Of a DNA stretch of 64,000 bases, positions 5,645-48,098 are shown piece by piece. Under the pieces are notes generated by a model. That model saw only the letters and a list, made by a program, of their open reading frames with translations. It searched no databases and was not told where the DNA came from. The stretch covers positions 96,016-160,015 of the IMG/VR virus record IMGVR_UViG_3300035661_000009; one strand, given 5' to 3'. Source of the stretch: a virus. A program made the translations under genes and the position numbers. The first letter of the stretch is position 1. Each line of letters starts with the position of its first letter.

Positions 5645-5718
5645 TGGGTTCGGTGGGGTACGATCCCACAGCCTATTGATTAAGAGTCAATTGCACTGTC
5701 CATTTGTGCTACGAACCC
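5645..5718 (-). tRNA. tRNA-Lys (CTT)
   Basis: A full cloverleaf: acceptor GGGTTCG/CGAACCC, D arm with GCAC...GTGC, anticodon stem ATTGA/TCAAT with loop CTCTTAA (anticodon CTT), and T stem GTGGG/CCCAC. The 3' CCA is not encoded. It lies between two protein genes of the leftward operon. Confidence 0.93.
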
Positions 5719-6249: not shown

Positions 6250-6307
6250 AATTCAGCGCTCCGATAAAAGTGTTAATACGGATTCAAAAGATAATTTTAT
6301 ACTATGG

Positions 6308-6495
6308 TTAATTATTTCTTCTCCATAACGGTTTAGTGTACTTAACCAAATCTATATGGGGATTGAAGCCAGACACTTTATATCCGGGAAACAAGATTTC
6401 GCATGTTTTAATGGTTTGTTTAACCAACTCAAAATAGAACTTTTCTGAGATTAGGGCCCCCCATTCCTGTCTAACGGATTTAACATCATCTTCAT
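6308..6495 (-). pseudogene. small gene needing a -1 shift at a G6 run
   Basis: Directly after tRNA-Ile an ATG at 6495 stands behind GGGAG, which is part of the tRNA acceptor stem. The frame runs 13 codons into a run of six G (6462-6457 on the leftward strand) and then stops. If reading slips back by one base in that run, the frame stays open to a TAA at 6308. It then encodes 62 residues with protein-like composition (ISEKFYFELVKQ, then FPGYKVSGFNPHID). The total of 188 bases plus one repeated base is exactly 63 codons. It could be a broken gene, a phase-variable or programmed shift, or a sequence error in the homopolymer. Confidence 0.5.
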
Positions 6496-6496
6496 G

Positions 6497-6565
6497 TACT
6501 CCCGAAAAGAGTCGAACTTTTCCGGCAGGCTTATAAGACCCGCTTCCGCAACCGGCGACAGGAGC
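6497..6565 (-). tRNA. tRNA-Ile (TAT), short D arm
   Basis: The acceptor GCTCCTG pairs with CGGGAGT. The anticodon stem CGGGT/GCCTG encloses loop CTTATAA (anticodon TAT, reading AUA). The T stem AAAAG/CTTTT encloses TTCGACT. The D arm is short and poorly paired, making only 69 bases in total. The anticodon suits an AT-rich phage using ATA codons. Confidence 0.7.
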
Positions 6566-6623
6566 AAAAACCCTAATTCATCTAGGGTTAAATCCAAATC
6601 TATGTAATTTGCTATCTAACTAA

Positions 6624-6848
6624 TTAGACAGCGGGGGTCTTTTCGAATTCAACAACGAAAGTAGTCTCGTCGCGGTTTAGCCGCGCAAGAACACCGCTTA
6701 CTTCCGATGAGGGAGAATCAGCATAAGTTTCATCAGCCATATCGACGGTAAAACCTGCCGCCGTCAATAGTGAACTAACTAGCTCGCCAACGGCCTTCTT
6801 ACCTGATTTCGCGGGACCAGCAATCGTAATAGTAACAGTCTTTGACAT
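6624..6848 (-). CDS. small protein with P-loop-like GPAKSGKK motif
   Basis: The start is set at the ATG at 6848, behind a purine-rich AAGAGA stretch; this gives 74 residues. Residues about 7-16 read IAGPAKSGKK after a hydrophobic strand, which is the layout of a Walker A loop with Lys in place of the last Ser/Thr. A helix and a VDMADE strand follow, as in the first half of kinase-like P-loop folds. The protein is far too short for a full NTPase. It may be a fragment or a minimal nucleotide-binding decoy. It lies between tRNA-Tyr and tRNA-Ile. Confidence 0.6.
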   Translation of the reverse strand: MSKTVTITIAGPAKSGKKAVGELVSSLLTAAGFTVDMADETYADSPSSEVSGVLARLNRDETTFVVEFEKTPAV

Positions 6849-7049: not shown

Positions 7050-7148
7050 CCACTGCTCAACCACTGCTCAACCACTGCTCAACCACTGCTCAACCACTGC
7101 TCAACCACTGCTCAACCACTGCTCAACCACTGCTCAACCACTGCTCAA
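7050..7148. repeat. nine tandem copies of an 11-bp unit
   Basis: The unit CCACTGCTCAA is repeated nine times without any mismatch (99 bases). It lies in the transcribed leader between the leftward promoter at 7174-7202 and tRNA-Tyr at 7003. No gene crosses it. The 11-bp period is close to one DNA helical turn. Confidence 0.97.
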
Positions 7149-7173
7149 CCAACCCGTCCGCTACCGCCCGACA

Positions 7174-7202
7174 ACCCTATCACACCCGGTTCGTACCGTC
7201 AA
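7174..7202 (-). promoter_or_regulatory. promoter TTGACG-17-TAGGGT (leftward)
   Basis: TTGACG is at 7202-7197 and TAGGGT at 7179-7174, with a TG upstream of the -10. The core (CGAACCGGGTGTGATAGGGT) is the same as in the rightward promoter at 14438-14466. Both promoters lead into tRNA genes. The 127 bases upstream of it (7203-7329) hold no gene. Confidence 0.78.
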
Positions 7203-7282
7203 CACCCCGGCTTAACGCGCTGTGTTGCGGTTGCGCCGCTTATTCTTGCCTACCTGTATGCCCAACCCTAAGGCCGCAGTTA

Positions 7283-7306
7283 AAGCTATATTTAGTTATA
7301 TAGCTT
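7283..7306 (-). terminator. AT-rich hairpin downstream of the transglutaminase-like gene
   Basis: AAGCTATA at 7283-7290 pairs with TATAGCTT at 7299-7306, and the leftward strand continues TTTAAC. It lies 25 bases past the stop of the gene at 7330. It may be a weak terminator. Confidence 0.4.
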
Positions 7307-7329
7307 GGAAAGTGCCAAAAAAATATGTA

Positions 7330-7944
7330 TCACGGATAGATGACCTTTTCTCTGTTTAACTTACTATCTGTTACCGCAATTGCGGTGATTATGCCAGATA
7401 CGCAATACATGTCCACTATCTTTCTAGCGACCTCTTCAATCGAACTAAAATAACTGCTAGGGAGGTGATAGTCAGACCACCTATAGCCAAGATCGTTTTT
7501 AATTAGACAGACATTGTGTCCATTTTGTTTACCTTTATCATCTATCCAGCAAACAGATAGCATCCGGGTAGTCAGGTCTTTTTCTTCAAAGCTCCCTTCA
7601 TTTACGGCATTTTCTATAACGGTAACTTGATACAGAGCGAATTCATCACAGTCATGACTATCTACCGTATCTGTTCCGGTTCTTTCAAAATACGATGGAT
7701 AAGAATAGGCATTCCATAATTCCTTAGCTCCGTCGGCTACCCAAAGCTGTTGGCGTATAAAGAAGTATATGTCTTTAAAGGTGGCATATTTACTTACTGG
7801 CTTATCTTTCCAGTCTCTTTGATATATCCACCTATATGCCTTGCTCCATTTACAGTCTAACCCAAGACTTAGGACGGTATATAGGGTTATTTTAATAATA
7901 AAGACATAAAGCTGCATTAGTTTACGGAAGATAACTTTGTTCAT
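7330..7944 (-). CDS. transglutaminase-like cysteine hydrolase
   Basis: This 204-residue protein carries the papain/transglutaminase triad layout: Cys99 in HDCDEFAL, His143 in GHNVCLI and Asp158 in WSDYH. The region before it is helical, with a hydrophobic N-terminal stretch at about 10-30 that could be a membrane anchor or signal sequence. Related bacterial proteins act as peptidases, amidases or transglutaminases. Here the target is unknown. With two amidoligases in the same genome, an isopeptide- or amide-cleaving or transferring role is a reasonable inference but not shown. It ends the leftward operon that carries the tRNA cluster. Confidence 0.7.
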   Translation of the reverse strand: MNKVIFRKLMQLYVFIIKITLYTVLSLGLDCKWSKAYRWIYQRDWKDKPVSKYATFKDIYFFIRQQLWVADGAKELWNAYSYPSYFERTGTDTVDSHDCDEFALYQVTVIENAVNEGSFEEKDLTTRMLSVCWIDDKGKQNGHNVCLIKNDLGYRWSDYHLPSSYFSSIEEVARKIVDMYCVSGIITAIAVTDSKLNREKVIYP

Positions 7945-29856: not shown

Positions 29857-30897
29857 TTAATCCCCGTGGGTGTGTTTAGTGCTTAGATATGTAGAGGCTT
29901 GGGCTTCAAAGTTGGCTAAATCCACACCCATTTTGGTTACTGCCGTTATAGCTTGGGTTAATGAATAAGCCATAACTCCAAAACCGGGCAATGCTAATAC
30001 TCCACCCAGCATAGGTGCTGCATTAGCTGCAGCGGCTACTCCTAAGGCTATTGTAGCTTGTGTAAGCGCCGCCGTAAGGTTGGCTATGTCGGTAGACAGG
30101 TTGGTATGTAACGTTTGTTGCTGATTCCTGAAATTAGTGCCATTAAGCCAAGCTTGTTGACTAGCCGCGTCAGGATTGACTTTCATGCCGTTAGCTGTAG
30201 TTATTTTGAGATTAGCATCTGTCTTAAACTCAGTATTATTCTTACTATACGTCTTTATGTTTTGATCTTTCTTACTTATTTTAAAAAAGGCATTGTCTGT
30301 GGCCGAGTCGTCTAAACTACCTATATAGCCAAGGATGTGCTCACCATTAATGGTCTGTTGATAAGTAGCGTCTTGGTGTTTCTCAGAATCAGCGACAGAT
30401 CCGTCTGCGTTAGTCTTTCCTCTGCGGGTTAGCTGGAATTCGCCATCTTCGTTAATAAAGACATTCATTCCGTTATATTCAAAATCTAAAAAGATAGAAT
30501 TCCCGTACGTTTCTTCTGTACCAGCATATGAATGGGGAATACCGCCTATAATATATGCTTCTCTAGAATTACCATTAACACACATAACTAAAACTTCACT
30601 ATTAAGTCTTAAAAATGATTTTGGATTAGGGTCGATTCTGGGTATCCAGTTAATTCTATCCGCCACTCCACCAAATAAAGTGGTCGTTTTTACTCTATAA
30701 TATGGAGTGTGAGCTTCGGCACCGCCATCGCAATATCCGACTAAAACATCATATGTCATTGTCTTATATTGTTCATCTGGAGGATAAATATTAATAATTT
30801 TACCTAATCTAAGTCTAGAGTCATTTAGAGAGAGTTCATACGAACTAGCCTGCAATTGAGCGATATCGCCTAAATAAGATGGAAAGATTTCGCTCAT
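29857..30897 (-). CDS. baseplate spike/hub protein (gp5-OB type)
   Basis: This 346-residue protein has an N-terminal beta-barrel section (residues about 28-120, with VLVGYCDGG and LNSEVLVMC) like the OB-fold of phage spike proteins. It continues with GEFQLTRRGK and repeating beta elements, a small-residue helix near 265-320, and an HTHGD end. The terminal His-x-His could bind a metal at the needle tip, as in other spikes. It lies next to the hub gene. Confidence 0.72.
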   Translation of the reverse strand: MSEIFPSYLGDIAQLQASSYELSLNDSRLRLGKIINIYPPDEQYKTMTYDVLVGYCDGGAEAHTPYYRVKTTTLFGGVADRINWIPRIDPNPKSFLRLNSEVLVMCVNGNSREAYIIGGIPHSYAGTEETYGNSIFLDFEYNGMNVFINEDGEFQLTRRGKTNADGSVADSEKHQDATYQQTINGEHILGYIGSLDDSATDNAFFKISKKDQNIKTYSKNNTEFKTDANLKITTANGMKVNPDAASQQAWLNGTNFRNQQQTLHTNLSTDIANLTAALTQATIALGVAAAANAAPMLGGVLALPGFGVMAYSLTQAITAVTKMGVDLANFEAQASTYLSTKHTHGD

Positions 30898-30898
30898 A

Positions 30899-32752
30899 TT
30901 ACTCCCTTTCTACCGTAATTGAATCCATATGCTTATTTTTTGGATTATTTATGTAATATACGTGGGCACCCTCTGGATTATTTTCAGACTCACTAAGTAC
31001 AATGCCATTCGTCAAGGTCAATTGAATAGAAGACGACTTCAATCCAGAACCATTTATATTCCCCGTCATATTAACTGATTCAATATGAAAAAGAAGATCG
31101 CTAATTACACAGTTATCCCCAATTGCTATAGGATCTGAAAATCCAACTACAGTGACCGTTCCAGTAAGTTTTAAATGATTCATCCCATTTATATCTAACC
31201 AAAACTTATTATAAAAAGACGTTCTTGCTGTAATTTCTCCATTTATAGATCCTGTAAAAGCTGCTGAAATATTTTTAACGACGCCTTGAACGCCACTTCT
31301 TTTAATATCAACAGTATCGTGCAATGGGGTCAATGAATTTCTTATGTCATGAGGATCTATCCCTTGTCTAATCGGGAGTAAATAAGTAAAGTTCATTTTA
31401 GCGCCGTTAGATTTTGTAAATGAAAATGAATTAATCATTGCATCATCTATTTCCCAGCGAGGAAGATCTAAATATTTAGTTATATTAAAATTATCATTAA
31501 AATCGAACTTAATATCATTTTTTGGCGCAGTAGTTTTAGCTTGCTTAATTTCTCTTTTAATTACATTATTAGCATTTTTCTCTTGTGGAGTATTTGCCGC
31601 CCCTGCTGCCTGGCTTTTTAATTTGGCCAATACGGGAACTATTTTGGGAGTTGAAAGTGGAACTCTTCTTACGGTCAGTGACGGATATATAAGATCGTCA
31701 GAAGACACTCTCATTGAGGTGAACATTTCATTTATTGGAGAATTCAAATATCCTTGCAGGATCCCCATAACTTCTTGCATAGCCCAATAGGTAGGCTGGA
31801 CTACAATTGGATCGTTTAGTCTTTTGGTACAATTATTTATTATAAATCCAGTGTCTTTAAATAAATTATTTTCCGTATCTATTTCAGGAGCGTAGTCAAT
31901 AAACTCTTGGACGCCTACGGTTACGTTTAAAATGTTTGCGTAAGTCTGGCCGCCACCTGAAGTAGAGTCTCTCCTAAATAGTGTATTGATTGTATCGGGA
32001 ATAAAATATGCCTCATTTGGAGACATACTAACTGAAGTGTTTTGATTGCCAAATTTGGCTTTCTGGCTAGGTCCGTATCCCAAAAGCATTGTCAATGTAA
32101 GAGGAATCGCAAACTGAGTTGGCATTATACTAGTGATGGCCCCTTTGGTAGCGCCAGTTAAATTATTAAAATCCATCCAATAGTCAACTGGACCATTTTT
32201 AAGATTTTGAATATAAGGGTCGAAGAAAATCATTGCCCCCAGCTCTGAAAAGCTAGTACAACCAACGTTCATGGTCATGTTCTTGATACCTCCCGCACCT
32301 ACTTGCACAGAAGAAGTGACGGTGTTTACACGACCTAGAAATTTCAATCCTAAATCTTTATGGTTAAGTTTTTTATTTCCAACATTAAAGGTCTGATTTT
32401 TAAGTGCCTCTTTAACATTTAAATAATTAGTTTTATTATCAAAATACCAAAAACATACCCAGTCGCCAGGATTTATTTCAGATAGATAATTTATTTTACC
32501 TACAAGTAAATTTAAATTTAAATCTCCAGTCTTAGATCCTTTTGAAGACCTACATGTCCATGATACACAATCGTCATCTATTATTAAAGGATCTCCATCT
32601 TCTTCGACAGGATCTTTAATATTATCTATAGATTGCTGGGTGTCAAAATCTAAAGTAATTTTATCTTTAAACTTGACTACATAAGCAATCCAGTAGGGGG
32701 AGATTTGATGGGCGTCTCCGGAATTTGGAGATATTTTATTATTCTTTTTCAT
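30899..32752 (-). CDS. baseplate hub-like protein, 617 aa
   Basis: A large beta-rich protein with many Asn, Ser and Thr, located directly after the tape measure and before the spike, the usual position of the tail hub. It contains GDWVCFWYFDN near residue 97 and FLGRVNTVTSSV near 140, as in hub proteins that close the tube. It overlaps the tape-measure gene by one base. Confidence 0.68.
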   Translation of the reverse strand: MKKNNKISPNSGDAHQISPYWIAYVVKFKDKITLDFDTQQSIDNIKDPVEEDGDPLIIDDDCVSWTCRSSKGSKTGDLNLNLLVGKINYLSEINPGDWVCFWYFDNKTNYLNVKEALKNQTFNVGNKKLNHKDLGLKFLGRVNTVTSSVQVGAGGIKNMTMNVGCTSFSELGAMIFFDPYIQNLKNGPVDYWMDFNNLTGATKGAITSIMPTQFAIPLTLTMLLGYGPSQKAKFGNQNTSVSMSPNEAYFIPDTINTLFRRDSTSGGGQTYANILNVTVGVQEFIDYAPEIDTENNLFKDTGFIINNCTKRLNDPIVVQPTYWAMQEVMGILQGYLNSPINEMFTSMRVSSDDLIYPSLTVRRVPLSTPKIVPVLAKLKSQAAGAANTPQEKNANNVIKREIKQAKTTAPKNDIKFDFNDNFNITKYLDLPRWEIDDAMINSFSFTKSNGAKMNFTYLLPIRQGIDPHDIRNSLTPLHDTVDIKRSGVQGVVKNISAAFTGSINGEITARTSFYNKFWLDINGMNHLKLTGTVTVVGFSDPIAIGDNCVISDLLFHIESVNMTGNINGSGLKSSSIQLTLTNGIVLSESENNPEGAHVYYINNPKNKHMDSITVERE

Positions 32753-35262
32753 TATTTCTTTTTTAAGCCAGTTATAGGATTATTTTGTCTTTCGGAAATA
32801 GCCTTCCTAACTTCAGCAACTCTTTCCGGAGGAGAATGATTCATTTCTAGAACTAATATTTGTAGCTCTTGAACTAACCCAATAGCATCATCCCATAATT
32901 TATTATCACTTCCTTGGACAGTCTTCCAAAAAGCACTTGCGTCTCTAAAAGCAGAGGTAATTTCAGGTTTACTCATCGCTTCTACTAGGCCCTGCATAGT
33001 TATTGCTGCCGTTCCGGCTGCTGCGCCTGAAGAATGTTGCTGTAATCCAGAGACTGTTTTTGAAGCGGAAGCCATACTTTCGATCGATCCGTCGTAGCTA
33101 CCAAGCGCTTCGATTGCCTTAGTTCCTTCTACTTGATTCATTCCCTTAAACGACTGATCTCTTTGTCTAAGAATTCCGGCCATTAAAGCAGGATTCGATT
33201 TCATGGCCCCACGCCAACCGCCGCTAGCATATGCAGCACCGAGATTTTGATCGCTACCTGCCGCTTCCTGGGCCATGCGATCCATGTCGCCTTCAAATTC
33301 TTGTTTTCTTTGTGCGTCAGTGACGCCAAATGACCGTAACTCATCGGAATTACCAAGAAGGTCCGTAAGTGAAGCGTTGCTCAAGGCCTTAGTCTTATAG
33401 AAGCTAGCATCGTCACCTAAATTATTTCTTGTTTGCGAAAAATTAACCGCTTGCAAAAAAGGGTCGCCGCCCAAGCCTTCAGACAAGGCGTTTAATCCTT
33501 TTGATCTTTGCTCTATATCAGCTTTAATGCCACCTCCATTTCCAAGTAAATTAGCTAATGCGGATACTCCAGCTTCAGTAAATCCTCCGCTCGGACCCAT
33601 CATGGCTTGACCAATTGAAGAAGCAATACTTTCTCTAGTTTCTACGTCAAATCCCGACTTAACGCCAGCGGCTACGGCTAAAGTTAGCATTCTTTGAGCT
33701 TTTTCTTGTCTGTCTGCTCCGTTTCCTGACATTAAACCTGACGCATTGCCCATAAACTCGCCAGTCATTTGTCTATCAAATCCATACTTCTGAAATTCTA
33801 ATGAGCGTTCGTACAATCCGCGTTGTTTGTAAGAAACTCCTCCTCCTCCACCACTTTTAGGCGTAGCGATAGCTTCAGGTAATCCATTTCCTTCATGAAT
33901 CCCATAATGATGGCCAATATCATCCGACATAGGTATATGGGTTCCAGGTATTAGATCTCCACTTAGCCATCCCTTTTCGGTTTTACTTAAAGGGTGGTTT
34001 GTTAAAAAACCTCCCGTTTTTGGAGCCGCAGCTTTTTGATCCGCAGCTATTTTAGCCGCCGAACCTCCAGATCTATTTTGAATACCCATTGCCATGTTAG
34101 AGCCGTATTTATTACTCAACCCTGAAGCGAATTCTAAGCTTTCACTTAAAGACATGCCCTGTGCGGCACCGGCCCACCCAGCTTGCATAGCTTTACCGCC
34201 AGTACGTCTATCTGCTGCTAATAATGCGGGGGCATATTGCTGTAAATGTTGCATCAAGGGTGCTAAAGTTGGATCTACCTCTGTTTGGTAATTCCTAATA
34301 CCAGACTCAAGATTTCCGGTCTGCATAGCCTCTTTGCCGCCCTGAAGACTAAAATTGGCAGTATTTATTCCGGCAGTTAGTCCAGCACCAATAACTCCAG
34401 TGCCAGCGCCTGCAGCGCCTGCGTTAGCTAATCCAGTTCCGGCAGAAGCGGCAATGCTACTGGCATTCCCAAGAAAATTAGCGGCGGTTAATCCTGCCGT
34501 TCCACCAAACGTATTATCAAGAGTGCCGTTAATCCCACCTCTTAATGATGGAAAATCCGCAAGATTCCGAGGTCTGTCTGGATGTAGTCTAGCTGTTTCG
34601 TAAGCTAAAACATCACTAAAATCACCTCCAAGCATTCTGGATGTAATTCCCCCTCTATATCCTCTTACTTTAGCTAAATTACCATACGTAGCCAGACCTG
34701 CCGTTCCAGCATATTGAGCAGCTTCAGCGCCCACCCCCATTATTTGAGATGCTTGAGTATATCTATAAGCTGCCGCCGAAGTTTGTCCCATGTGAGATAC
34801 TTGGGCTTGGTGTTGGGCTTGAGGGGTTGCTGGAGCCGAAACGAAACCACCATTAGGGAGTGGGAGCAACATCACGTTGCCATTTATAGCACCGCCCCCG
34901 TTGCCACCACCACCACCACCACCTCCGCCGCCACCACCACGACCGCCACTTGCTCCACTTAATCGCTTGCTACTTGCAGCTACGGCAGATATGCTACTTG
35001 CCATGCTTTGGAGGGCGGCGGCCTGTGATTTAGCTTCAGCCCCAACAGATTTTAATGCTGCAATAAACGACCTATTCCCTTGAACCACCTCTTTCATACT
35101 GGCGGCAATAGCTTTGAAATTATCAGCAAACTTCTTCAAAGCACCTTGATTTTGGTTAATCAAAGCTTCGAGTTGTTTAAACTGATCTTTAGCTTTCTTA
35201 ATGTCGGCGCTTAATTGCCCTGCGCTGCCACCAATTCCACCGGGGTTTTTGGGAGTTGCCAT
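32752..35262 (-). CDS. tail tape measure protein
   Basis: An 836-residue protein, Ala/Gly/Ser-rich. It has an N-terminal coiled coil (residues about 15-95), then a poly-glycine run (about residues 105-125), and long small-residue helices. It has the usual place between the chaperone-like genes and the hub. At about 0.15 nm per residue it would fit a tail near 125 nm. No lysozyme or peptidase domain is seen. Confidence 0.82.
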   Translation of the reverse strand: MATPKNPGGIGGSAGQLSADIKKAKDQFKQLEALINQNQGALKKFADNFKAIAASMKEVVQGNRSFIAALKSVGAEAKSQAAALQSMASSISAVAASSKRLSGASGGRGGGGGGGGGGGGNGGGAINGNVMLLPLPNGGFVSAPATPQAQHQAQVSHMGQTSAAAYRYTQASQIMGVGAEAAQYAGTAGLATYGNLAKVRGYRGGITSRMLGGDFSDVLAYETARLHPDRPRNLADFPSLRGGINGTLDNTFGGTAGLTAANFLGNASSIAASAGTGLANAGAAGAGTGVIGAGLTAGINTANFSLQGGKEAMQTGNLESGIRNYQTEVDPTLAPLMQHLQQYAPALLAADRRTGGKAMQAGWAGAAQGMSLSESLEFASGLSNKYGSNMAMGIQNRSGGSAAKIAADQKAAAPKTGGFLTNHPLSKTEKGWLSGDLIPGTHIPMSDDIGHHYGIHEGNGLPEAIATPKSGGGGGVSYKQRGLYERSLEFQKYGFDRQMTGEFMGNASGLMSGNGADRQEKAQRMLTLAVAAGVKSGFDVETRESIASSIGQAMMGPSGGFTEAGVSALANLLGNGGGIKADIEQRSKGLNALSEGLGGDPFLQAVNFSQTRNNLGDDASFYKTKALSNASLTDLLGNSDELRSFGVTDAQRKQEFEGDMDRMAQEAAGSDQNLGAAYASGGWRGAMKSNPALMAGILRQRDQSFKGMNQVEGTKAIEALGSYDGSIESMASASKTVSGLQQHSSGAAAGTAAITMQGLVEAMSKPEITSAFRDASAFWKTVQGSDNKLWDDAIGLVQELQILVLEMNHSPPERVAEVRKAISERQNNPITGLKKK

Positions 35263-35776: not shown

Positions 35777-36190
35777 TTATTGATTCTTTACAACTTCCTG
35801 CTTTTCGGCCATTTCCTTCAACCTAGCTTCTGCTGCTTTGCCTTTGTCTTGAACTTCCTTAATGGCAGCTAGACGAATCTTAATAGTTTCTGACCAAACT
35901 TCTGAAATTACGTTATCATCTACAAGGTCTATGCCAAAGCCCGCTTCTTTCCACCAAGCAGGAACTTCAGCTAAACAGACATAAAGATCTGCGAACACCT
36001 CAGCCTTGTCTTTTGCGTTTTGCGACGCTGAATCGGGGTTTTCGCCCAATAATTCCCGATACTTACGATCTCTTGCTAATTCTTGACGGTGAGATAGTCT
36101 ACGAAGACACTTAAATGACCCCATATAGGTTTCGCCCGACTTATCACCATTTACTGACACTCTAAACTCTGTTGTTTCTAGGAGATTCAT
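35777..36190 (-). CDS. probable tail assembly chaperone, first gene
   Basis: A 137-residue alpha/beta protein with a basic RRLSHRQELARDRKYREL helix near residues 29-46 and a Lys/Glu-rich tail. Its position before the tape measure suggests a tail assembly chaperone. Ribosome binding site AAGGAT. The gene is read away from the opposing promoter at 36239-36267. Confidence 0.6.
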   Translation of the reverse strand: MNLLETTEFRVSVNGDKSGETYMGSFKCLRRLSHRQELARDRKYRELLGENPDSASQNAKDKAEVFADLYVCLAEVPAWWKEAGFGIDLVDDNVISEVWSETIKIRLAAIKEVQDKGKAAEARLKEMAEKQEVVKNQ

Positions 36191-36238
36191 GTTTTATCCT
36201 TATTTCTTCTTCAAACCAAGCCAATCAGCCATCGGTCC

Positions 36239-36267
36239 TTGACGTACCAATCTTCTAGTGGTATTAT
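36239..36267 (+). promoter_or_regulatory. promoter TTGACG-17-TATTAT (rightward)
   Basis: TTGACG is at 36239-36244 and TATTAT at 36262-36267, with a TG before the -10. It is a complete sigma70-like promoter facing the late operon, placed to drive the small gene at 36327. Confidence 0.78.
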
Positions 36268-36326
36268 AGCATAGCCAGCATAACCAGCAGGCTTTATCAA
36301 GCTACATCAAGGAACCGCAATACATA

Positions 36327-36518
36327 ATGTATACAACAATAGGACCGAATGGAAAGGGTTGTAAACACGAGCATGAAACGTTTGACGAAGCTCAGGAGTG
36401 TTTACATGATTTTCTAGAAACATGCCGAAAGGCCAATAAAGTGGCCAATCGGGTAGTTGTTGAATGTAATTCGTTAGAAGAATTAGAAGACGAATTGGAC
36501 CAAATGGCTATATACTAA
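36327..36518 (+). CDS. small acidic protein on opposite strand, 63 aa
   Basis: A 63-residue product with GPNGKGCKHEHETFDEAQECLHDFLETC in its first half (given in parts: Cys/His cluster, then an amphipathic helix) and a very acidic C terminus (SLEELEDELDQ). The product has its own promoter and lies between two leftward late genes, with its stop one base before the ClpP-like gene's stop. It is probably an early-expressed factor placed inside the late block. Confidence 0.72.
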   Translation: MYTTIGPNGKGCKHEHETFDEAQECLHDFLETCRKANKVANRVVVECNSLEELEDELDQMAIY

Positions 36519-37187
36519 CTAGCGCTGTAATTGCTTTAGTAGCTCTTCCAACGGATTGACTACTCGGATTACGGTTTCGGGCGGCAACTTTTCTACCTCT
36601 ACTGTCCCGTCTATTAATCCATCTTCTTTTGCTTCTTCCCATCCAAAGAACCAATCTTTATTGTCTATTTTCTCTAAAAACTGTTCTTTGGTAAGTTTAC
36701 TTCGCTTACATACTTGCTCGGCCATTGTTAGTTTAATGACGTTAAGAAACTTGGCTGTGCTTTCAAGATCTTGCTCCTTCCCCTCGCCTTGTGAGCTTGG
36801 GCCATGAGCCATTAAGACTGTACGTTTAGTAGTTAAACGAAAGTCACAATATTGAAGAAGAACGAAGCCCATTGACATTGTTTTAATGTCAGCGACACAA
36901 GTAACTGGCGATCCGTAGGTTTCAATAGCTCTGACTAATTCCATTCCATCAAAAACTGAACCACCGGGGCTATCTATCCTTAACCAAAGATTGGTATTAC
37001 CTGATTCCTTTAGCTCTTGTATCTTAGCTATATATGCTTTTACGTTGCTCGGTGTGATCTCAGCAATTTGGAGCATAACTGGGGCAGAAATAACTGGAAT
37101 TGGCGCTGGTTCTCCCACTGGTTGTGCAATAGTGCAGGCGGCGACTACGACGATAAAAGCGATAGAAAGTCTCATTAAATTACCCAT
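36519..37187 (-). CDS. exported ClpP-like serine protease, lipoprotein signal
   Basis: The start is set at the ATG at 37187, which follows the AATCTC motif as in neighbouring genes, giving 222 residues. Residues about 5-18 form a signal peptide with lipobox VVAAC (Cys18). The rest is a ClpP/SppA/crotonase-type fold: DSPGGSVFDG near residues 72-81, MSMG with the nucleophile Ser105, and MAHGPSS with His128. Phage ClpP-like proteases usually mature the prohead in the cytoplasm. A secretion signal on one, within the tail genes, is unusual and suggests an envelope target. Confidence 0.8.
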   Translation of the reverse strand: MGNLMRLSIAFIVVVAACTIAQPVGEPAPIPVISAPVMLQIAEITPSNVKAYIAKIQELKESGNTNLWLRIDSPGGSVFDGMELVRAIETYGSPVTCVADIKTMSMGFVLLQYCDFRLTTKRTVLMAHGPSSQGEGKEQDLESTAKFLNVIKLTMAEQVCKRSKLTKEQFLEKIDNKDWFFGWEEAKEDGLIDGTVEVEKLPPETVIRVVNPLEELLKQLQR

Positions 37188-37193
37188 ATATTT

Positions 37194-37199
37194 GAGATT
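37194..37199 (-). promoter_or_regulatory. late motif variant AATCTC before 37187 gene
   Basis: The leftward strand reads ACCAATCTCAAATATATGG, with ATG inside TATATGG. It is a one-base variant of the late AATCTT motif. Confidence 0.5.
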
Positions 37200-37236
37200 G
37201 GTACTCAAACGGGTAAAATCATCATTTTAGTTATTT

Positions 37237-38637
37237 TTATTGATAAACTACAGTACCCCAGACATTTGGAGTAGAAGGTAGGGCCGTAGGGGAGGCTGCT
37301 CTTAAGGCAGCTATTGTGGTCACTGCACCATCTATAGTTATTTCATTAGTGGCCTGTAATGTAGCTGTTGATAGAATCTTCACTCTGCCGCCTCTTGATA
37401 CAACTACATAATTAGTGTTACCACTTTCTGTAATAGGAAAACCATTTTGAGCTCCAATGTTTGCATAGAAATTTGGAGCAGCAGACGAGATTACAGTAGT
37501 GCAGTTGATACATGCGTGAGATATTAGTGCGACTCTCACTGCGTTGGGAGCGGCAGTGCCAGCGGCACTTTCTATATTGCTTATTACTGTGCCCCAGCCT
37601 TCAAATAAAATCGAACTGCAAAGAATAGACCCTAACGACAATCCCAACGCGGTTCCAGTTCCAGTATTCTTTTGCCAAACGTAGCTTTCAGCTATGTTGA
37701 ATGCTATTGGAACGCTATTGGCTGGATTACTAAATACGGCTGCCGTTCCACTTGAAATAAGAGCCATTCTAGACATCGCTAATGTCCCCGAATTCATTGA
37801 AAATGAAGAATTAGTGGATGAATTTATCGTCATTTCTCTTAAGGTGACTATACTATTGTTAGATCTAAGTAATACACCTATTTGAGCGGTACTTACAGTA
37901 ATTGAAAAATTCTGAATAAGTATGCCAGAAGCGGAGAATGGAGATTCATTTCCTATAACCATTCCGCTGGTGGTTCCAGCAGAAAAGGTAGGAATGTTTG
38001 CATTGCAAGTAACAATACTGACATTATCTAATATTTGATATTGATTACTGGGGAACCCAGAAAAACTAGTAAGAGTAGGGCAGGTTATTGTAGTTGCTGT
38101 ATTACTAATTATCGGATAATTTACGCCACTGCCTACAAACGTTACAAACTTTCCTTTAAGATCGTTTACTGTCCACGATTGAGTAGTATCTGTGAATGTC
38201 CCTGAAGCCCCTTTTGAAGTGGCTGTTCCTTGATTACTTCCAGTAGTTACGGTAGATAAAGCCGTTGTGCCTTGGATCTTAATTCCTGGAGTTCCAAGAA
38301 CGTTGGTTTTAGAATAACTTACTTGATGGCCACCTAAAAAGAATCCATCATAGGTGCCCGCAGCAACATTTATTGTAACTAATTCACGAATTTCATAGTT
38401 AAGTAGGCTATCAAGGGCCGCTTGAATAGTCTTATAAGCAAAATCTTGTGTTCTTCCATTAAAAGAGTCATCTCCCTTAACAGAATCTACGAATATTACT
38501 AAGGGGGCGTCTATAATAAGATTTAAAGCGGACGATAAATCAATATCAGGATCTAATAATTTATTTTGACGAAGCATCGTGCGAAACGCAATATCGATAG
38601 CATTTTTCTTTTCATCATTAATTGCTTTTCTAGCCAT
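37237..38637 (-). CDS. tailspike/fibre with beta-helix-like region
   Basis: This 466-residue protein has VDSVKGDDSFNGRTQDF followed by YKTIQAALDSL near residues 51-77, the usual entry into right-handed beta-helix tailspikes (GxD ... pFkTIqaAl). It then has long Thr/Ser/Asn-rich repeats of short strands. No catalytic pair for glycan cleavage can be identified. It should bind, and perhaps cut, host surface glycan. It overlaps the upstream gene by one base. Confidence 0.72.
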   Translation of the reverse strand: MARKAINDEKKNAIDIAFRTMLRQNKLLDPDIDLSSALNLIIDAPLVIFVDSVKGDDSFNGRTQDFAYKTIQAALDSLLNYEIRELVTINVAAGTYDGFFLGGHQVSYSKTNVLGTPGIKIQGTTALSTVTTGSNQGTATSKGASGTFTDTTQSWTVNDLKGKFVTFVGSGVNYPIISNTATTITCPTLTSFSGFPSNQYQILDNVSIVTCNANIPTFSAGTTSGMVIGNESPFSASGILIQNFSITVSTAQIGVLLRSNNSIVTLREMTINSSTNSSFSMNSGTLAMSRMALISSGTAAVFSNPANSVPIAFNIAESYVWQKNTGTGTALGLSLGSILCSSILFEGWGTVISNIESAAGTAAPNAVRVALISHACINCTTVISSAAPNFYANIGAQNGFPITESGNTNYVVVSRGGRVKILSTATLQATNEITIDGAVTTIAALRAASPTALPSTPNVWGTVVYQ

Positions 38638-39017
38638 TAGAGTAATTTCCCTTGTTTAGGTTTTGATGCTATTGCTTTAATATGATCATCTAGTGGTTTC
38701 CACCACTTAAATTCAGCGTGTCTTGAAGACAAAGAGCCGTTAGGTGAGAATGGCTCGTTTGGAACCAATGGAGGTTTTTGATCTATTGGTTTATTGCGGC
38801 TTATTTGGCCAGCGGTTAAATCACTACCACGTTGATTAACACCTTCTGTGCTAATTCCCGGAGTATTGTTTATTTGCCACTTGCCTTCGCCTGCGGAGTT
38901 AAGTTCATTAATTACATCATGAGTAGTTGTAGCAAATGGTTCGTGCTGAGCTTTATTAAGATTCTTAAGCTCAATAGCAATTATGTTTAATATAGCTAAT
39001 GCTTGCTTATTATTCAC
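38637..39017 (-). CDS. orphan structural-region protein, 126 aa
   Basis: A helical N-terminal 35 residues (LAILNIIAIELKNLNKAQ), then a Pro/Gly/Asn-rich, probably disordered middle and a basic end. It lies between a tailspike and a coiled-coil membrane protein. Function unknown. Confidence 0.62.
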   Translation of the reverse strand: MNNKQALAILNIIAIELKNLNKAQHEPFATTTHDVINELNSAGEGKWQINNTPGISTEGVNQRGSDLTAGQISRNKPIDQKPPLVPNEPFSPNGSLSSRHAEFKWWKPLDDHIKAIASKPKQGKLL

Positions 39018-39019
39018 AA

Positions 39020-39400
39020 TTACATCCCTAAATGATTAACTAATCTTTCTGCTATGAAAGTTAATACACCGCCGCCACCGCCAATGACAATTGCGTAAAT
39101 CAGCTTTCTATGCCACTTAACCTTCTCTACCTCTGCGCGGTCACGTTTTTCTAACGCTACGACACGACCTTTAATCTTGCCTTGCTCGTCAACTACCTTG
39201 CTAGCAAATTCGGCCATAGATTTATTGGTTTCTTTAACCGAGTTGGTTAATTCGCCAATTTCTTCCTTAACTGATTCGAGGATGGTCGTCTGCTTACTCA
39301 TTTGTGTAGCTACCTCTACCCTTTCCCTTTCAAGGTGCTGGATACGATCTTCTTGATTTTCTAAAATTACGGTTAGCGGAAGCTTGGCTTGGTCTGACAT
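39020..39400 (-). CDS. coiled-coil protein with C-terminal TM (XhlA/holin-accessory-like)
   Basis: The start is set at the ATG at 39400, behind GAGAG; this gives 126 residues. A long coiled coil spans residues about 8-95, followed by a charged stretch and one transmembrane helix near 100-120 (LIYAIVIGGGGGVLTFIA). The layout is like hemolysin XhlA-type holin accessory proteins. It could also be a tail-attached membrane-piercing part. Confidence 0.65.
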   Translation of the reverse strand: MSDQAKLPLTVILENQEDRIQHLERERVEVATQMSKQTTILESVKEEIGELTNSVKETNKSMAEFASKVVDEQGKIKGRVVALEKRDRAEVEKVKWHRKLIYAIVIGGGGGVLTFIAERLVNHLGM

Positions 39401-39412
39401 AGTTTCTCTCAA

Positions 39413-40084
39413 TTACGCAATAGACCAACGGAGGATCTTTGCGCCGGTTACCGCTGAAGAAGTTGTTACAGTAAAGCTTCCAGCAGTGGGTACTACGATA
39501 TGGGTAATTCCGGCACCTAAAGCCGTTTCCCATTGAATATTGACTACATCGTTTGCAGTAACTAAACTGTTTGTTACGGTCATGGTAGATGCCGCATTAG
39601 CCATAGCTGCTCGACCTTTAGCTGTATTGCCAACGCCTGAGCCCGGGGTGCCTGAAATATCAGTAAAACCGGCAGTTCCAAGTCTTGTAGCGACTATTGG
39701 GGCGGTTATATTGATATTTGTACCGTCAAACGATATAAATGAGTTCGCTGAAGGACCATCTAAAATAATTGAGCCGCCAACTGGGATTTCTTGACCATTA
39801 TCTGCGAAAAGAAAATCGACCTGTTGCGGCTGCGTGAGTTTTGCTGATAATGCTACTGTATAGGCTGAACTAGGGAACCTGGTATATTGTCCATATATCT
39901 TAACTGCTAATTGAGTTGAAGAAAGAATGGCATCTACAAGTAAAGACACTGTAGGTAAGCCGGTTGCTGACAAATAGCACGTCGCTCCTACTTCAAATAG
40001 ACTTGTATCTGCAAAAGTTAATATACCATTGCTACCGCCATCGGCGGTAAGCGAAGCTATGATTTGCTGGGTCATTACAGTCAT
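39413..40084 (-). CDS. short fibre/adaptor protein with shared N-terminal domain
   Basis: The first about 110 residues resemble the N terminus of the gene at 46989-48098: both have ADGxSxGxLTxA, then YLxATGLPxVSL, then YTRF(D/P)SSAYTVAL and a TQP element. This suggests a common virion-attachment domain. The C-terminal 80 residues (from a GxAAMA element) look like a fibre tip domain with beta strands. Ribosome binding site GAGG. Confidence 0.72.
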   Translation of the reverse strand: MTVMTQQIIASLTADGGSNGILTFADTSLFEVGATCYLSATGLPTVSLLVDAILSSTQLAVKIYGQYTRFPSSAYTVALSAKLTQPQQVDFLFADNGQEIPVGGSIILDGPSANSFISFDGTNINITAPIVATRLGTAGFTDISGTPGSGVGNTAKGRAAMANAASTMTVTNSLVTANDVVNIQWETALGAGITHIVVPTAGSFTVTTSSAVTGAKILRWSIA

Positions 40085-40109
40085 TGATACACCTCAATCT
40101 ATTAGATTA

Positions 40110-40115
40110 AAGATT
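40110..40115 (-). promoter_or_regulatory. late AATCTT motif before 40084 gene
   Basis: The leftward strand reads ATACTAATCTTTAATCTAATAG, written here in two parts (ATACTAATCTT, TAATCTAATAG). It lies 26-31 bases upstream of the start. Confidence 0.55.
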
Positions 40116-40134
40116 AGTATCAATAATGAATGAT

Positions 40135-40680
40135 TTACAGCGTTATATTAGATTCAACTTCATTACCAAAACAATCCCAACCTTCGACCTTTTGTCTGGC
40201 AAAAAGCTCAATTCTAGGTAAGGGACCGATTAATTTAAGTATTAAATCACGAACTTCGGCTGGTTTTTCTGAATGTCTACCGATTGGTGAAGTAATTAAT
40301 TGGTGGATGCCGTGATCAATTACTTTGGGTTTTCCCCTAACTCCTATAAAACAAGGCTCGGTACAGGCCCGCGTATAGCGCCCCATGCCCCAAAACGGGG
40401 TTTTAGCCTTTTTGTTTAGCTTGACCCACTGGAACCCAAGGGTTTTGTATTCGAAACCCCACGAGGCCATTACGCCCAAGCAATCGGGTAGTTTAGGATA
40501 AGTCGCCCACATAAATAGAATACAATTATCGTCCGCTATGTCTTTTACCTTCATTTTACATAAATCTTCAGTAGAAAGAGTGGGATAATGGTTTTCTGCG
40601 CCACCTCTTGGGGTTTTATCATTATATGCCCATGGAGGATCCGCTAATATGATTTGGTATTTTTTAGTGATTATGGTCAT
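40135..40680 (-). CDS. MT-A70-family DNA adenine methyltransferase
   Basis: This 181-residue protein has the catalytic DPPW at residues 14-17, then LSTEDLCKM, LFMWATYPKL and GRYTRACTEP elements, and a SEKPAEVRDLI motif, all typical of phage MT-A70 enzymes that make N6-methyladenine in DNA. It may protect phage DNA from host restriction. It overlaps the next gene's stop by 4 bases (ATGA), and both lie in a modification-enzyme cassette inside the late block. Confidence 0.9.
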   Translation of the reverse strand: MTIITKKYQIILADPPWAYNDKTPRGGAENHYPTLSTEDLCKMKVKDIADDNCILFMWATYPKLPDCLGVMASWGFEYKTLGFQWVKLNKKAKTPFWGMGRYTRACTEPCFIGVRGKPKVIDHGIHQLITSPIGRHSEKPAEVRDLILKLIGPLPRIELFARQKVEGWDCFGNEVESNITL

Positions 40681-40886
40681 GATAGTGGAATAATCGTACT
40701 GCCATCTGTCTTTGACTCTTCAGATAGACAAGATGAGCAGACATAAAAAGAGACATATTGGGGTCGAAATCTAACCTTATAGTCGGCTGGAGCAAAGCAT
40801 TCTCTGCATTTCATTAAACCATGGTGGGAAACTGGCCCCAGTATTTTATTTAAAACCCAATCAAAGAATTTATCTATCTTATTCAT
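40677..40886 (-). CDS. small zinc-ribbon protein, 69 aa
   Basis: CRECF at about residues 27-31 and CSSC at about 49-52 form a four-Cys zinc ribbon. The N-terminal 20 residues are a basic amphipathic helix. It lies between the MT-A70 gene and the frameshifted gene. Perhaps it is an accessory subunit for the methylase (position only). Confidence 0.65.
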   Translation of the reverse strand: MNKIDKFFDWVLNKILGPVSHHGLMKCRECFAPADYKVRFRPQYVSFYVCSSCLSEESKTDGSTIIPLS

Positions 40887-41125
40887 TTATTTTTCTTCTA
40901 TTTGAACAAGGGTTGGGGTTTGTATTATTGGAGAATTGATTACATTAAGAGAAAAGGTTCCAAGCCCCGTGTATTTATAAGTTGTGGGTCCAAACCAAGA
41001 ATATATTTCGTGTATATCGTATTTGAGGTCGTACGACATGTGTGGATTTTTAAATCCAATATTTATTTCTTCTTCATCTTCATAGGTTATTTTTATTTCA
41101 ACTTTTTTACGCGATTTGTTTTCAT
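40887..41125 (-). CDS. small protein made by -1 frameshift at A_AAA_AAG
   Basis: An ATG at 41125 directly follows the preceding stop. The zero frame ends after ten codons. At 41108-41102 the frame reads A_AAA_AAG, the best known bacterial -1 slippery heptamer. After a -1 shift the frame is open to a TAA at 40889-40887, touching the next gene's ATG at 40886. The 239 bases plus the re-read base are exactly 80 codons. The product (VEIKITYEDEEEINIGF, then IHEIYSWFGPTTYKYTG) looks like a folded beta protein. Without the shift this would be a 240-base gap in a region with no other gaps. Confidence 0.65.
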
Positions 41126-41126
41126 T

Positions 41127-41663
41127 TTATTCTTTCGTAATAGTAGCTATAAGGTCTTGGCAAGCCTCTTTGTAGTTGTTTACAGCGAATTGCTGGAATT
41201 CCGTGCTACGAACAGTAAGATCTTGACGTAAGCTATAACCCCACGTCGCACTCCAATTGCAAGTAAACCCACCCGGTAAGAATTCTCCGTCTGTATGAGG
41301 AGCATTCTTTGCTCGCCAGTCTTTATTTAAATAATAATACCACATTTCAGCTACGGGGGGCCATTTGTGAGTTGGATCGCCTAAGGCTCGATTGCTAGCC
41401 CAATGTGGTGTAATTATTGAACATTTTCCACCCTTCTTCATAACGCGATATAATTCGTTTACAAAATGCATACGTTCTTCTGCGGTTAAATGCTCTACGA
41501 AGTGGCTGGCATGAGCTTCTGATACGGTTCCGTCAGCCCATGGGAATGTATCCTTGCCTACATTTAAAACTACATCGACTCCGGGGAAGGAAATTGAATC
41601 AACTCCTAGAAATCCTTGGCGTTTGTTCGGTCCACAGCCGAAGTCTATCTTGATATCTGTCAT
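41127..41663 (-). CDS. SAM-dependent methyltransferase (class I)
   Basis: This 178-residue protein has DFGCGPNKRQGFLGVD near residues 7-22 (SAM-binding motif I and acidic end of strand 2), then HFVEHLTAEE near 53-62 and a MKKGGKCSIITPH element. It is typical of small-molecule, glycan or protein methyltransferases of the Methyltransf_11 kind. It is next to a glycosyltransferase-like gene, so methylation of a sugar is possible (inference). Confidence 0.82.
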   Translation of the reverse strand: MTDIKIDFGCGPNKRQGFLGVDSISFPGVDVVLNVGKDTFPWADGTVSEAHASHFVEHLTAEERMHFVNELYRVMKKGGKCSIITPHWASNRALGDPTHKWPPVAEMWYYYLNKDWRAKNAPHTDGEFLPGGFTCNWSATWGYSLRQDLTVRSTEFQQFAVNNYKEACQDLIATITKE

Positions 41664-41664
41664 A

Positions 41665-42144
41665 TTATTCCTTTATGGTTTGCTCTACGCCCTCTTCGAG
41701 TAGCGAAGATAGGCCATTTTCGGCTAAAATTTGTGCTAGATTGTCTGTATCTTTAACCGTTACGAAGAAAAAAACGCCATAGGGCTGAGACAGGTCTGTA
41801 ATCGCCATTTTAATTGAGCCCGGAGGGGCGAGACTTCCAATAACCTCTACTCCAGCAGCAATAACTTTATCTAAGGTCGGTAAGACGAACTGATTTAAAA
41901 TATCGCTTGGAGTTGACGATTCTTCACCTAATATGGTTTGATATAGTGTGGTTCTTACAATTTTTGATAAAAACAAAGTTCTATATCCAGCGTCTTTGTC
42001 TGCAATTTTATTAAATCTTGTTTCTGCAATTGTTTTGTATTTATCTGGTACAGGTAGCTTGGTAATTGATAAATGTCTAGAGGCTTTGTTTTCATCAATA
42101 GCTTTTTTAAAATTTTCAATTGCTTCCATTATTTTGTCGTTCAT
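41665..42144 (-). CDS. orphan protein, 159 aa
   Basis: A helical protein with a basic N-terminal half and a mixed alpha/beta C-terminal half. Ribosome binding site AAAGGAATAAT, the same string as before the methyltransferase gene. It sits between glycosyltransferase-like and methyltransferase genes. No motif is recognised. Confidence 0.65.
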   Translation of the reverse strand: MNDKIMEAIENFKKAIDENKASRHLSITKLPVPDKYKTIAETRFNKIADKDAGYRTLFLSKIVRTTLYQTILGEESSTPSDILNQFVLPTLDKVIAAGVEVIGSLAPPGSIKMAITDLSQPYGVFFFVTVKDTDNLAQILAENGLSSLLEEGVEQTIKE

Positions 42145-42158
42145 ATTATTCCTTTAGG

Positions 42159-42872
42159 TTACCACGTAAATCCGTCACCCGAACTATCGTGGTGACCTAC
42201 AAGTATACTACAGTCAATGGCACAACGATAGCCGTATTTTCTAAAGTCTGTCCAAGCATAAAGATCTTGCGTCATAATCCCGCCATCTCCAGCCAAAGTC
42301 TTAAACCATGGTTTGCGGAGACGCTCATCCTTAAACATGCTAGTTCTGAATAAATTAAAACCCATACCCGTGCCACAGCATTCTACTAATTGTCCGGGAA
42401 TGGGAGGTTGCGGTCGGAAATTCAATACGGGGTCTTTGGGATCGCCCCAAATCTGTGGAACGCCGCCCTCGCCCTTGGTCCAGTATAAACCACCTATGCA
42501 TGAAAGCTCTGGGTGCTTTTCCATTTGGTTAATAAGTTTTAATACGCCATCCGCTGGAGGCATGTTGTCGTGTTCTAGCGTAAGTATGTATTCCCATTGG
42601 CTTAAGTCAGGGTTTGCAAGGATTTGGTCAATGGCTTGACTATAAGCCTCACCTACTTCTAACCCTAATGCGAGCATTCGGTAAACAGCTTGATTGGGCG
42701 GAAACATTAAATTCCAGTGCGATAATGCGACTTTACTGTCTATCATTTTCGCTGCTGGGATTATTACGATTATTCGTTGTTTCTTCCAACTGCCGCCTTC
42801 AAATATGCGTTTAGTCGATTCTTCAAGATTTTTGTTATGTTGACCGGGGTCGGTCTCGGTAATTATGGTCAT
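42159..42872 (-). CDS. glycosyltransferase-like protein (GT-A type)
   Basis: This 237-residue protein has LTLEHDNMPPADGVLKLI near residues 98-115 (an EHDN acidic cluster in the place of the DxD motif), CIGGLYW near 129, GTGMGFNLFR near 165, and a final DLYAWTDFRKYGYRCAID. The fold order is that of GT-A glycosyltransferases. It may glycosylate phage DNA, virion or host surface. The ATG lies 6 bases after a TATAAT box, so the mRNA may be leaderless. Confidence 0.7.
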   Translation of the reverse strand: MTIITETDPGQHNKNLEESTKRIFEGGSWKKQRIIVIIPAAKMIDSKVALSHWNLMFPPNQAVYRMLALGLEVGEAYSQAIDQILANPDLSQWEYILTLEHDNMPPADGVLKLINQMEKHPELSCIGGLYWTKGEGGVPQIWGDPKDPVLNFRPQPPIPGQLVECCGTGMGFNLFRTSMFKDERLRKPWFKTLAGDGGIMTQDLYAWTDFRKYGYRCAIDCSILVGHHDSSGDGFTW

Positions 42873-46988: not shown

Positions 46989-48098
46989 TTAGTTAGTTAT
47001 TTCAGTAACTAAAGCGTTACCGTTTGCGGATACCCAAATCCCATCTATTTGGCCAGTGTATCCCGCTGGTACTTCATAATATGCGTTTGGGGCCATCTTA
47101 ACAGAATACGATGAAGAACTTGCAGTTACTCCAAGCTTTAGATATAAGAATTGAGTGGAATCATTGAATATAGTTAGGCCCATTCTTGCCCCATTACTTG
47201 CTTTTAAAGTAACGTTGGTAGCTGAAGAAGCAACTTGAGTAATTGCCGTAGAACCTGATTTTTCTACTATACGTAAATTGCCGTTTAAGTCTACAGATAG
47301 TGCGACTTGATTGCCATCTGAATAACTTGGATTAGCCGTATTAGCGATTGCATTTAATACTGGGACGTTAACAGTACCTAATGCTGTATTATTGCTTCTA
47401 CTTCCTTGTACGTAGAATGGATTAGCTGCAATTCCAGCTTCAACTGAACCACCAGATCCTGATTGACGTATATTTACGCCAAGAACGTATTGCAATCCCG
47501 CACCTGTATCTACATCAAAAACTCGAGCGCCTTGCATATTTGCGCCGTCATTAAAGCCAACCGCCGTTGCAATACCTGGGAATCCACCACCTATTGAAGA
47601 AGCCGTGCCTCCTCCGCCGCCACCAGAAATGCCGGTAACTACTATAGGATTAAGGGCGGTTCCTAAGACGTTAGTCCCGTCAGTTACCTTAACTGGCCAG
47701 CCATTAGCTAAGGAAGAGTTAGGCGTGCCTTGAGCAACTCCAGCAACGTCTCGCATATCACGCAATATGCGGTAAACATCGCTAATTCCAGGATCCTTAT
47801 TTACGAAGAAGTTAGTCTGTTCCGGCTGAGTTATTGTAGCAGCAAGAGCTACGGTGTAGGCCGAAGAGTCGAACCTTGTGTAAACGCCCGGAGTCGTAAG
47901 TTTTACATAAAATGTAGTGTCGTTTACGATATCTGCTATTTGTAAACTTACAGAAGGCAGGCCGGTTGCATTTAAATAAACTACAGACCCTATCCTTAAT
48001 CTAAAGGTAGAGGCTATAGTTAGAAGGCCGGTCGAAGACCCGTCAGCTACTAAACTTTGTTTTTCAAATGGAACTAATGATGTGCCCCAATCAGCCAT
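46989..48098 (-). CDS. fibre-attachment or tail adaptor protein, 369 aa
   Basis: The N-terminal about 105 residues resemble the protein at 39413-40084 (ADGSSTGLLT, then YLNATGLPSVSL and a YTRFDSSAYTVAL element), a likely shared baseplate-docking domain. Its middle is Gly-rich and the C-terminal half is beta-rich with a SSYSVKMAPNAYYEVP element like fibre-associated proteins. It lies directly upstream of the long fibre. Confidence 0.7.
   Translation of the reverse strand: MADWGTSLVPFEKQSLVADGSSTGLLTIASTFRLRIGSVVYLNATGLPSVSLQIADIVNDTTFYVKLTTPGVYTRFDSSAYTVALAATITQPEQTNFFVNKDPGISDVYRILRDMRDVAGVAQGTPNSSLANGWPVKVTDGTNVLGTALNPIVVTGISGGGGGGTASSIGGGFPGIATAVGFNDGANMQGARVFDVDTGAGLQYVLGVNIRQSGSGGSVEAGIAANPFYVQGSRSNNTALGTVNVPVLNAIANTANPSYSDGNQVALSVDLNGNLRIVEKSGSTAITQVASSATNVTLKASNGARMGLTIFNDSTQFLYLKLGVTASSSSYSVKMAPNAYYEVPAGYTGQIDGIWVSANGNALVTEITN

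Follow-up and report, generated by a model that had tools for sequence, protein, structure and literature searches.

Positions 40887-41125 of the window, by which we mean the whole 64,000-base stretch analysed (positions 96016-160015 of the 160,015-base virus record, here G000), probably hold a real gene whose reading frame is interrupted close to its 5' end, a statement that we make with good but not full confidence. The explanation that we place first, tentatively and with the balance lying close to even, is that an orphan accessory gene of 79 residues was intact until recently and had its frame broken by the natural loss of a single base in a run of A. The original prediction had taken the interval for a hidden gene reached by a -1 shift at A_AAA_AAG and had offered an insertion or deletion in the A run as the alternative. 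The reading frame of that prediction is upheld by codon usage. A programmed shift is opposed by the absence of recognisable stimulators, by a tRNA-Lys(CUU) of the phage and by the presence of the heptamer in ordinary genes, while the alternative fits equally well and needs less.

Geometry of the locus

The features that enter the argument are listed here in window coordinates, except for the last, which lies outside the window.

42159-42872, minus strand: glycosyltransferase-like protein of the gene block (weak Pfam match; relatives in 273 viral-contig stretches)
41665-42144, minus strand: ORF of 159 residues in the same block, with a homologue elsewhere in contig G022 (41% over 127 residues)
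41127-41663, minus strand: methyltransferase (family match, Methyltransf_11 / phrog_6636), sharing its frame with the hidden ORF
41093-41125, minus strand: 0-frame mini-ORF MKTNRVKKLK with its stop, read from the sequence
41102-41108, minus strand: A_AAA_AAG, six A and one G in 0-frame phase, read from the sequence
40887-41102, minus strand: coding part of the -1 frame, 71 codons (VEIKITYEDEEEINIGFKNPHMSYDLKY...QIEEK) and a stop (open frame, codon scores, shuffles)
40887-41039, minus strand: longest canonical ORF of the -1 frame, 50 residues, with only a 3-base Shine-Dalgarno match upstream
40677-40886, minus strand: ORF of 69 residues whose ATG touches the stop of the hidden ORF, without a family in PHROGs and Pfam
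40135-40680, minus strand: MT-A70 type DNA methyltransferase (family match)
5645-5718, minus strand: tRNA-Lys with anticodon CUU (ARAGORN), which bears on slippage at AAG
Record 6307-6667 (G000:C1:6307-6667), minus strand: second broken gene (L148 5413-5783; L149 about 7110-7500)

The methyltransferase ends with a TAA at 41129-41127 and, after a gap of one base, the ATG at 41125-41123 opens a 0-frame of ten codons that is terminated at 41095-41093. The AAAAAAG at 41108-41102 is read within it in the phase A_AAA_AAG, and a -1 shift at that point gives a product of 79 residues, or 80 codons with the stop. The terminator of the -1 frame (TAA, 40889-40887) abuts the ATG of the next ORF at 40886. 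Both ends of the gene are thus tightly packed, the start lying one base past a stop and the stop touching an ATG. This is the arrangement that had been predicted, from the ATG behind the methyltransferase stop through the heptamer to the stop just before the next ATG, and all of its coordinates hold, as does the single open frame of 80 codons.

The -1 frame is the methyltransferase's own frame and, immediately past that gene's stop, stays open as far as 40887. Its first ATG, GTG or TTG is the ATG at 41039, from which the longest canonical ORF of 50 residues is read, and a tryptic peptide such as ITYEDEEEINIGFK is encoded in the -1 frame upstream of this ATG. The frame break falls near the 5' end of the hidden gene, which has methyltransferase genes on both sides. 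Readthrough of the methyltransferase stop into the hidden frame, which would require passage of the one TAA between them, was considered and set aside, as nothing spoke in its favour.

Coding character of the -1 frame

Codon log-odds were trained on the 91 ORFs of at least 150 residues in the G000 record. The 79-codon frame scores 17.3, compared with a mean of 20.3 (sd 8.2) for in-frame segments of equal length, and exceeds nearly all wrong-frame segments, the exception being one antisense frame in which 6.9% reach this value. The 71 codons past the heptamer score higher than dinucleotide shuffles of the same stretch (p = 0.0024). For the 21 codons between the heptamer and ATG 41039 the score is 9.8. 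Depending on which of the five wrong frames is taken, 0 to 1.1% of segments reach this value, as do 1.2% of 6,289 open intergenic 63-mers, a null that omits the hidden gene's own gap and the threonine-codon repeat region (record 73-80 kb). Compared with dinucleotide shuffles, this short stretch gives p = 0.008, or 0.02 among the shuffles that stay open (1,606 of 20,000). The upstream extension of the -1 frame scores 11.5 and ranks fifth among those of 239 called genes, which are simple calls of our own and include doubtful ORFs of the repeat region; of the four extensions above it, three lie in threonine-codon repeats and one belongs to the second frame-broken gene. Because codon scores and shuffles place it above nearly all null segments, the -1 frame looks moderately strongly coding, also upstream of ATG 41039. 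For the product, which the original prediction had described as looking like a folded beta protein, AlphaFold run on the single 79-residue sequence returned a mean pLDDT of 35.5.

The same scores bear on a simpler reading, in which the true gene is the 50-residue ORF from ATG 41039, or starts at a non-canonical codon upstream, and the preceding open stretch and ATG 41125 are products of chance. Same-strand neighbours are separated by at least 60 bases in 48 of 204 cases, 8% of the 21-codon shuffles remain open, and codon usage is also compatible with the 50-residue ORF as the whole gene, which counts against an indel. Nevertheless, the 21 upstream codons carry coding score, and ATG 41039 is preceded by a Shine-Dalgarno match of 3 bases only, ATG 41125 being no better in this respect. 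The 50-residue part by itself scores 5.8, below most genes, with 11% of in-frame segments as low. We consider this shorter gene unlikely, while giving it the best standing among the alternatives to a natural indel.

Codon usage does not tell where the frame was broken. When the switch between frames is placed after each of codons 1 to 10 in turn, the summed scores run from 15.21 to 17.27, and the best position, directly after AAG, reaches 17.27 compared with 15.21 to 16.94 at the nine others. With a margin as small as 0.33 the break cannot be placed by this means, and an indel could have occurred in the short A run directly after the ATG just as well as in the run of six A.

Origin of the frame break

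By judgement and not by computation, the readings are ranked with a natural indel first, followed by the shorter gene, an assembly error, a programmed shift and, last, slippage of the polymerase or phase variation. For a natural indel, one base would have been lost from an A run near the gene start, either that of the heptamer or the shorter one after the ATG; we infer both the direction and the place of the change. Ribosomes leaving the methyltransferase stop would presumably restart at ATG 41125, make ten residues and terminate at 41095-41093, and the 79-residue product would now be absent or present in traces only, through spontaneous slippage on the A run. The coding signal on both sides of ATG 41039, together with the absence of a canonical start before it, argues for such a loss, whereas the hidden frame bears no further damage, which would be expected in an old dead gene.

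The loss of one base from a longer in-phase A run always yields A_AAA_AAG with a continuation in the -1 frame, and so manufactures an apparent dnaX-type slippery site. The heptamer is therefore no independent evidence of recoding, and since an indel predicts both it and the open -1 frame, their coincidence is explained without recoding; by themselves the two cannot tell recoding from indel. According to the GeneTack study (PMC3711429), orphan frame-broken singletons are regarded as overlaps, errors or indels. The hidden gene resembles these in the absence of a homologue, the absence of a conserved site and a break at an A run, and no feature was found that sets it apart from them. A pattern allowing 3-12 free bases at the run found no copy with another run length in viral contigs, a collection from which near-identical records may be omitted. 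Neither a second copy of the gene nor an intact relative was found, which counts against this putative indel.

If the true run length differed from that in the record, the gene would be intact and the break an error of sequencing or assembly. A single assembly covers the hidden locus, and a second copy was not found. A second contig, G021 (IMGVR_UViG_3300035182_001197; 34,080 bases), argues otherwise: it matches G000 over its whole length with zero gaps and 25 mismatches (4, 1 and 20), 18 of these in the last 140 bases of the record, and its 47 runs of six or more bases are all without an indel relative to G000. This agreement is indirect for the hidden gene, as G021 ends short of the locus, and none in 47 still permits an error of a few percent per run. 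Moreover, no frame break was detected among the G000 genes with relatives (81 of 239), by a test that misses breaks near gene ends, such as that at 6307.

The latter belongs to a second frame-broken gene (record 6307-6667), which directly follows the major capsid gene. Its break is +1/-2, near the 5' end, at the run A5G4 (five A, four G), and the gene is identical in G021 and G000 (480/480 bases). A homologue in G022 is read in a single frame (45% identity over 109 residues), and Myxococcus phage Mx1 has a related ORF of 99 residues. Since the break is common to two assemblies while G022 has a single frame, this phage does carry real frame breaks, and the assemblies are reliable at runs. With G021 free of gaps and the second broken gene shared, we place an isolated error of sequencing below a natural indel and would rate it as improbable, just behind the shorter gene. 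The 6307-6667 gene itself looks structural and may be either dead or recoded; it is a better candidate for tests of recoding than the hidden gene.

A programmed shift, in which tRNA-Lys on AAA AAG slips by -1 to yield the 79-residue protein and the ten-codon frame acts as a throttle, is possible but unsupported, and we find it doubtful, marginally more so than an assembly error. The heptamer is in phase with intact frames on both sides, and codon scores are highest, if barely, for a switch after AAG. Its in-phase copies are also somewhat rarer than shuffled codons would give, as if the heptamer were costly: 12 sites occur in 11 called genes, where codon shuffling expects 20.7 (sd 4.1). The same count means that ordinary called genes of the record tolerate it, and one of these genes, 35924-40327, with relatives in two fetched loci, continues past its own copy. 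As in E. coli dnaX, A_AAA_AAG, a heptamer of the form X_XXY_YYZ, is read in the phase of the 0-frame, which soon runs into a stop. Slippage at the dnaX site is stimulated by a downstream stem-loop and an upstream Shine-Dalgarno-like element. In sites of the dnaX/IS type the structure downstream may also be a pseudoknot, the Shine-Dalgarno-like element lies about 10-14 bases upstream and is missing from some members, and AAG is read by a sole, weakly pairing tRNA-Lys(UUU). The hidden gene, in contrast, has neither stem-loop nor Shine-Dalgarno-like element: in pseudoknot-free folding no stable structure begins within about 40 bases downstream of the heptamer, the first hairpin of the centroid fold lying about 43 bases past it (fold z-scores of -0.1 to -1.3 relative to shuffles), and the bases upstream, read by eye, hold no Shine-Dalgarno-like word. 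When the longest piece is folded to minimum energy, one weak pairing across the heptamer appears, and the centroid of that piece lacks it. It further differs from dnaX in that only 8 codons would be translated ahead of the shift and in the presence of the phage tRNA-Lys(CUU), which is expected to read AAG firmly. With prfB (RF2) the hidden gene shares a short first frame near the 5' end, the main protein being read in a different one. The prfB shift is +1 and its signal includes a stop codon, whereas the hidden gene would need -1.

Two studies name A_AAA_AAG as the site of dnaX and count it with the most slippery heptamers of E. coli (PMC5009743, PMC4066793). Slippage is held to be influenced by the presence of a second lysine tRNA with good pairing to AAG (PMC5009743), and in an E. 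coli survey stimulator-free frameshift-prone heptamers gave 2.1- to 10-fold the background, which was 0.055% (PMC4066793). It is conceivable, at long odds, that the protein is expressed only by a -1 slip that needs no stimulator and happens within a few codons of a start coupled to the methyltransferase stop. This would be a minimal short-leader switch that keeps an accessory protein at trace level and responds to the balance between tRNA-Lys(UUU) and the phage tRNA-Lys(CUU). A shift in actual use would make the locus a very small -1 frameshift switch of the leader type in a phage, one that lacks recognisable stimulators and belongs to a kind of gene that gene finders would miss. Unless a second copy or a laboratory test shows the shift in use, the hidden gene is an ordinary one.

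Three other genes that carry the heptamer at their ends (record 30596-31081, 128767-131277 and 148125-148763) were considered as shift sites and rejected, as the heptamer is missing at those ends in the relatives compared, one for each; these ends probably represent lysine-rich tails. Two pairs of genes overlap by one base (window 32752-35262 with 30899-32752, and record 30596-31081 with 31081-32943). In each, an in-phase A_AAA_AAG falls among the last 6 codons of the gene that comes first, where a -1 slip would fuse the two. In both pairs the heptamer is missing in the compared relatives.

Slippage of RNA polymerase at the A run, or phase variation of its length, would restore the frame in some transcripts or genomes and give the same product as a -1 shift, and is very unlikely with a run of only six A, where about nine would be expected for transcriptional slippage. 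In a large share of genomes, runs of about nine are evidently selected against because they slip, and shorter runs may slip in some bacteria (PMC1088944).

The gene block and its phage

The hidden ORF belongs to a block composed of the glycosyltransferase-like gene, the 159-residue ORF, the methyltransferase, the hidden ORF, the 69-residue ORF and the MT-A70 methyltransferase, with tail genes on either side. The syntenic contig G022 has the flanking tail genes, lacks the hidden ORF and is missing most of the block. Genes for the glycosyltransferase-like protein and the methyltransferase co-occur in many other phage contigs, where the genes that follow them differ. As most of the block is absent in G022 and the genes behind this pair vary among contigs, the hidden gene is accessory and exchangeable, a kind of gene in which decay would be expected.

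No relative of the 79-residue protein was found in viral contigs or genome contigs. The phage records gave only Bacillus phage Mater (E 0.2 over 44 residues), and the best values were E 1 in plasmids, 0.085 in PHROGs (searched together with Pfam), 0.92 in solved structures and 0.12 in a tblastn search of 117 fetched loci; PADLOC was also without a relative. The frame was unmatched in the 20 records searched out of 34 found with tail-sheath relatives, and in 6 records that include the whole of Myxococcus phage Mx1, three of them shared with the tail-sheath set. Of the 83 glycosyltransferase/methyltransferase loci, 49 had their records searched, and its own record, the positive control, was the only one to match. 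Relatives of these two genes were also tried as guides to the downstream gene and were of no use, the ORFs behind them being other things. Elsewhere, the pair at window 41127-42872 is often followed by ORFs that start with repeated AFQ motifs. Two proteins encoded on either side of the block (window 39413-40084 and 46989-48098) have the same best match, one ORF of G022 (L158_m_8617_9358), and may therefore have a domain in common or a duplicated one.

The phage is contractile-tailed, as matches to tail sheath and baseplate proteins document, and its major capsid protein shares 55% identity with its counterpart in Myxococcus phage Mx1. Related records are G015 and G019, and the nearest with synteny is G022. 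The contig G021 bridges the two record ends, positions 1 and 160015 (window 64000), with a 251-base overlap containing 18 mismatches. By joining both ends, it makes the record look circular or circularly permuted and near complete. At about 14000-18250 of L123 (record 74-78.3 kb) there are several open frames consisting for the most part of threonine codons (TTTITTT repeats), some without start codons, which look like simple-sequence repeats and not like genes.
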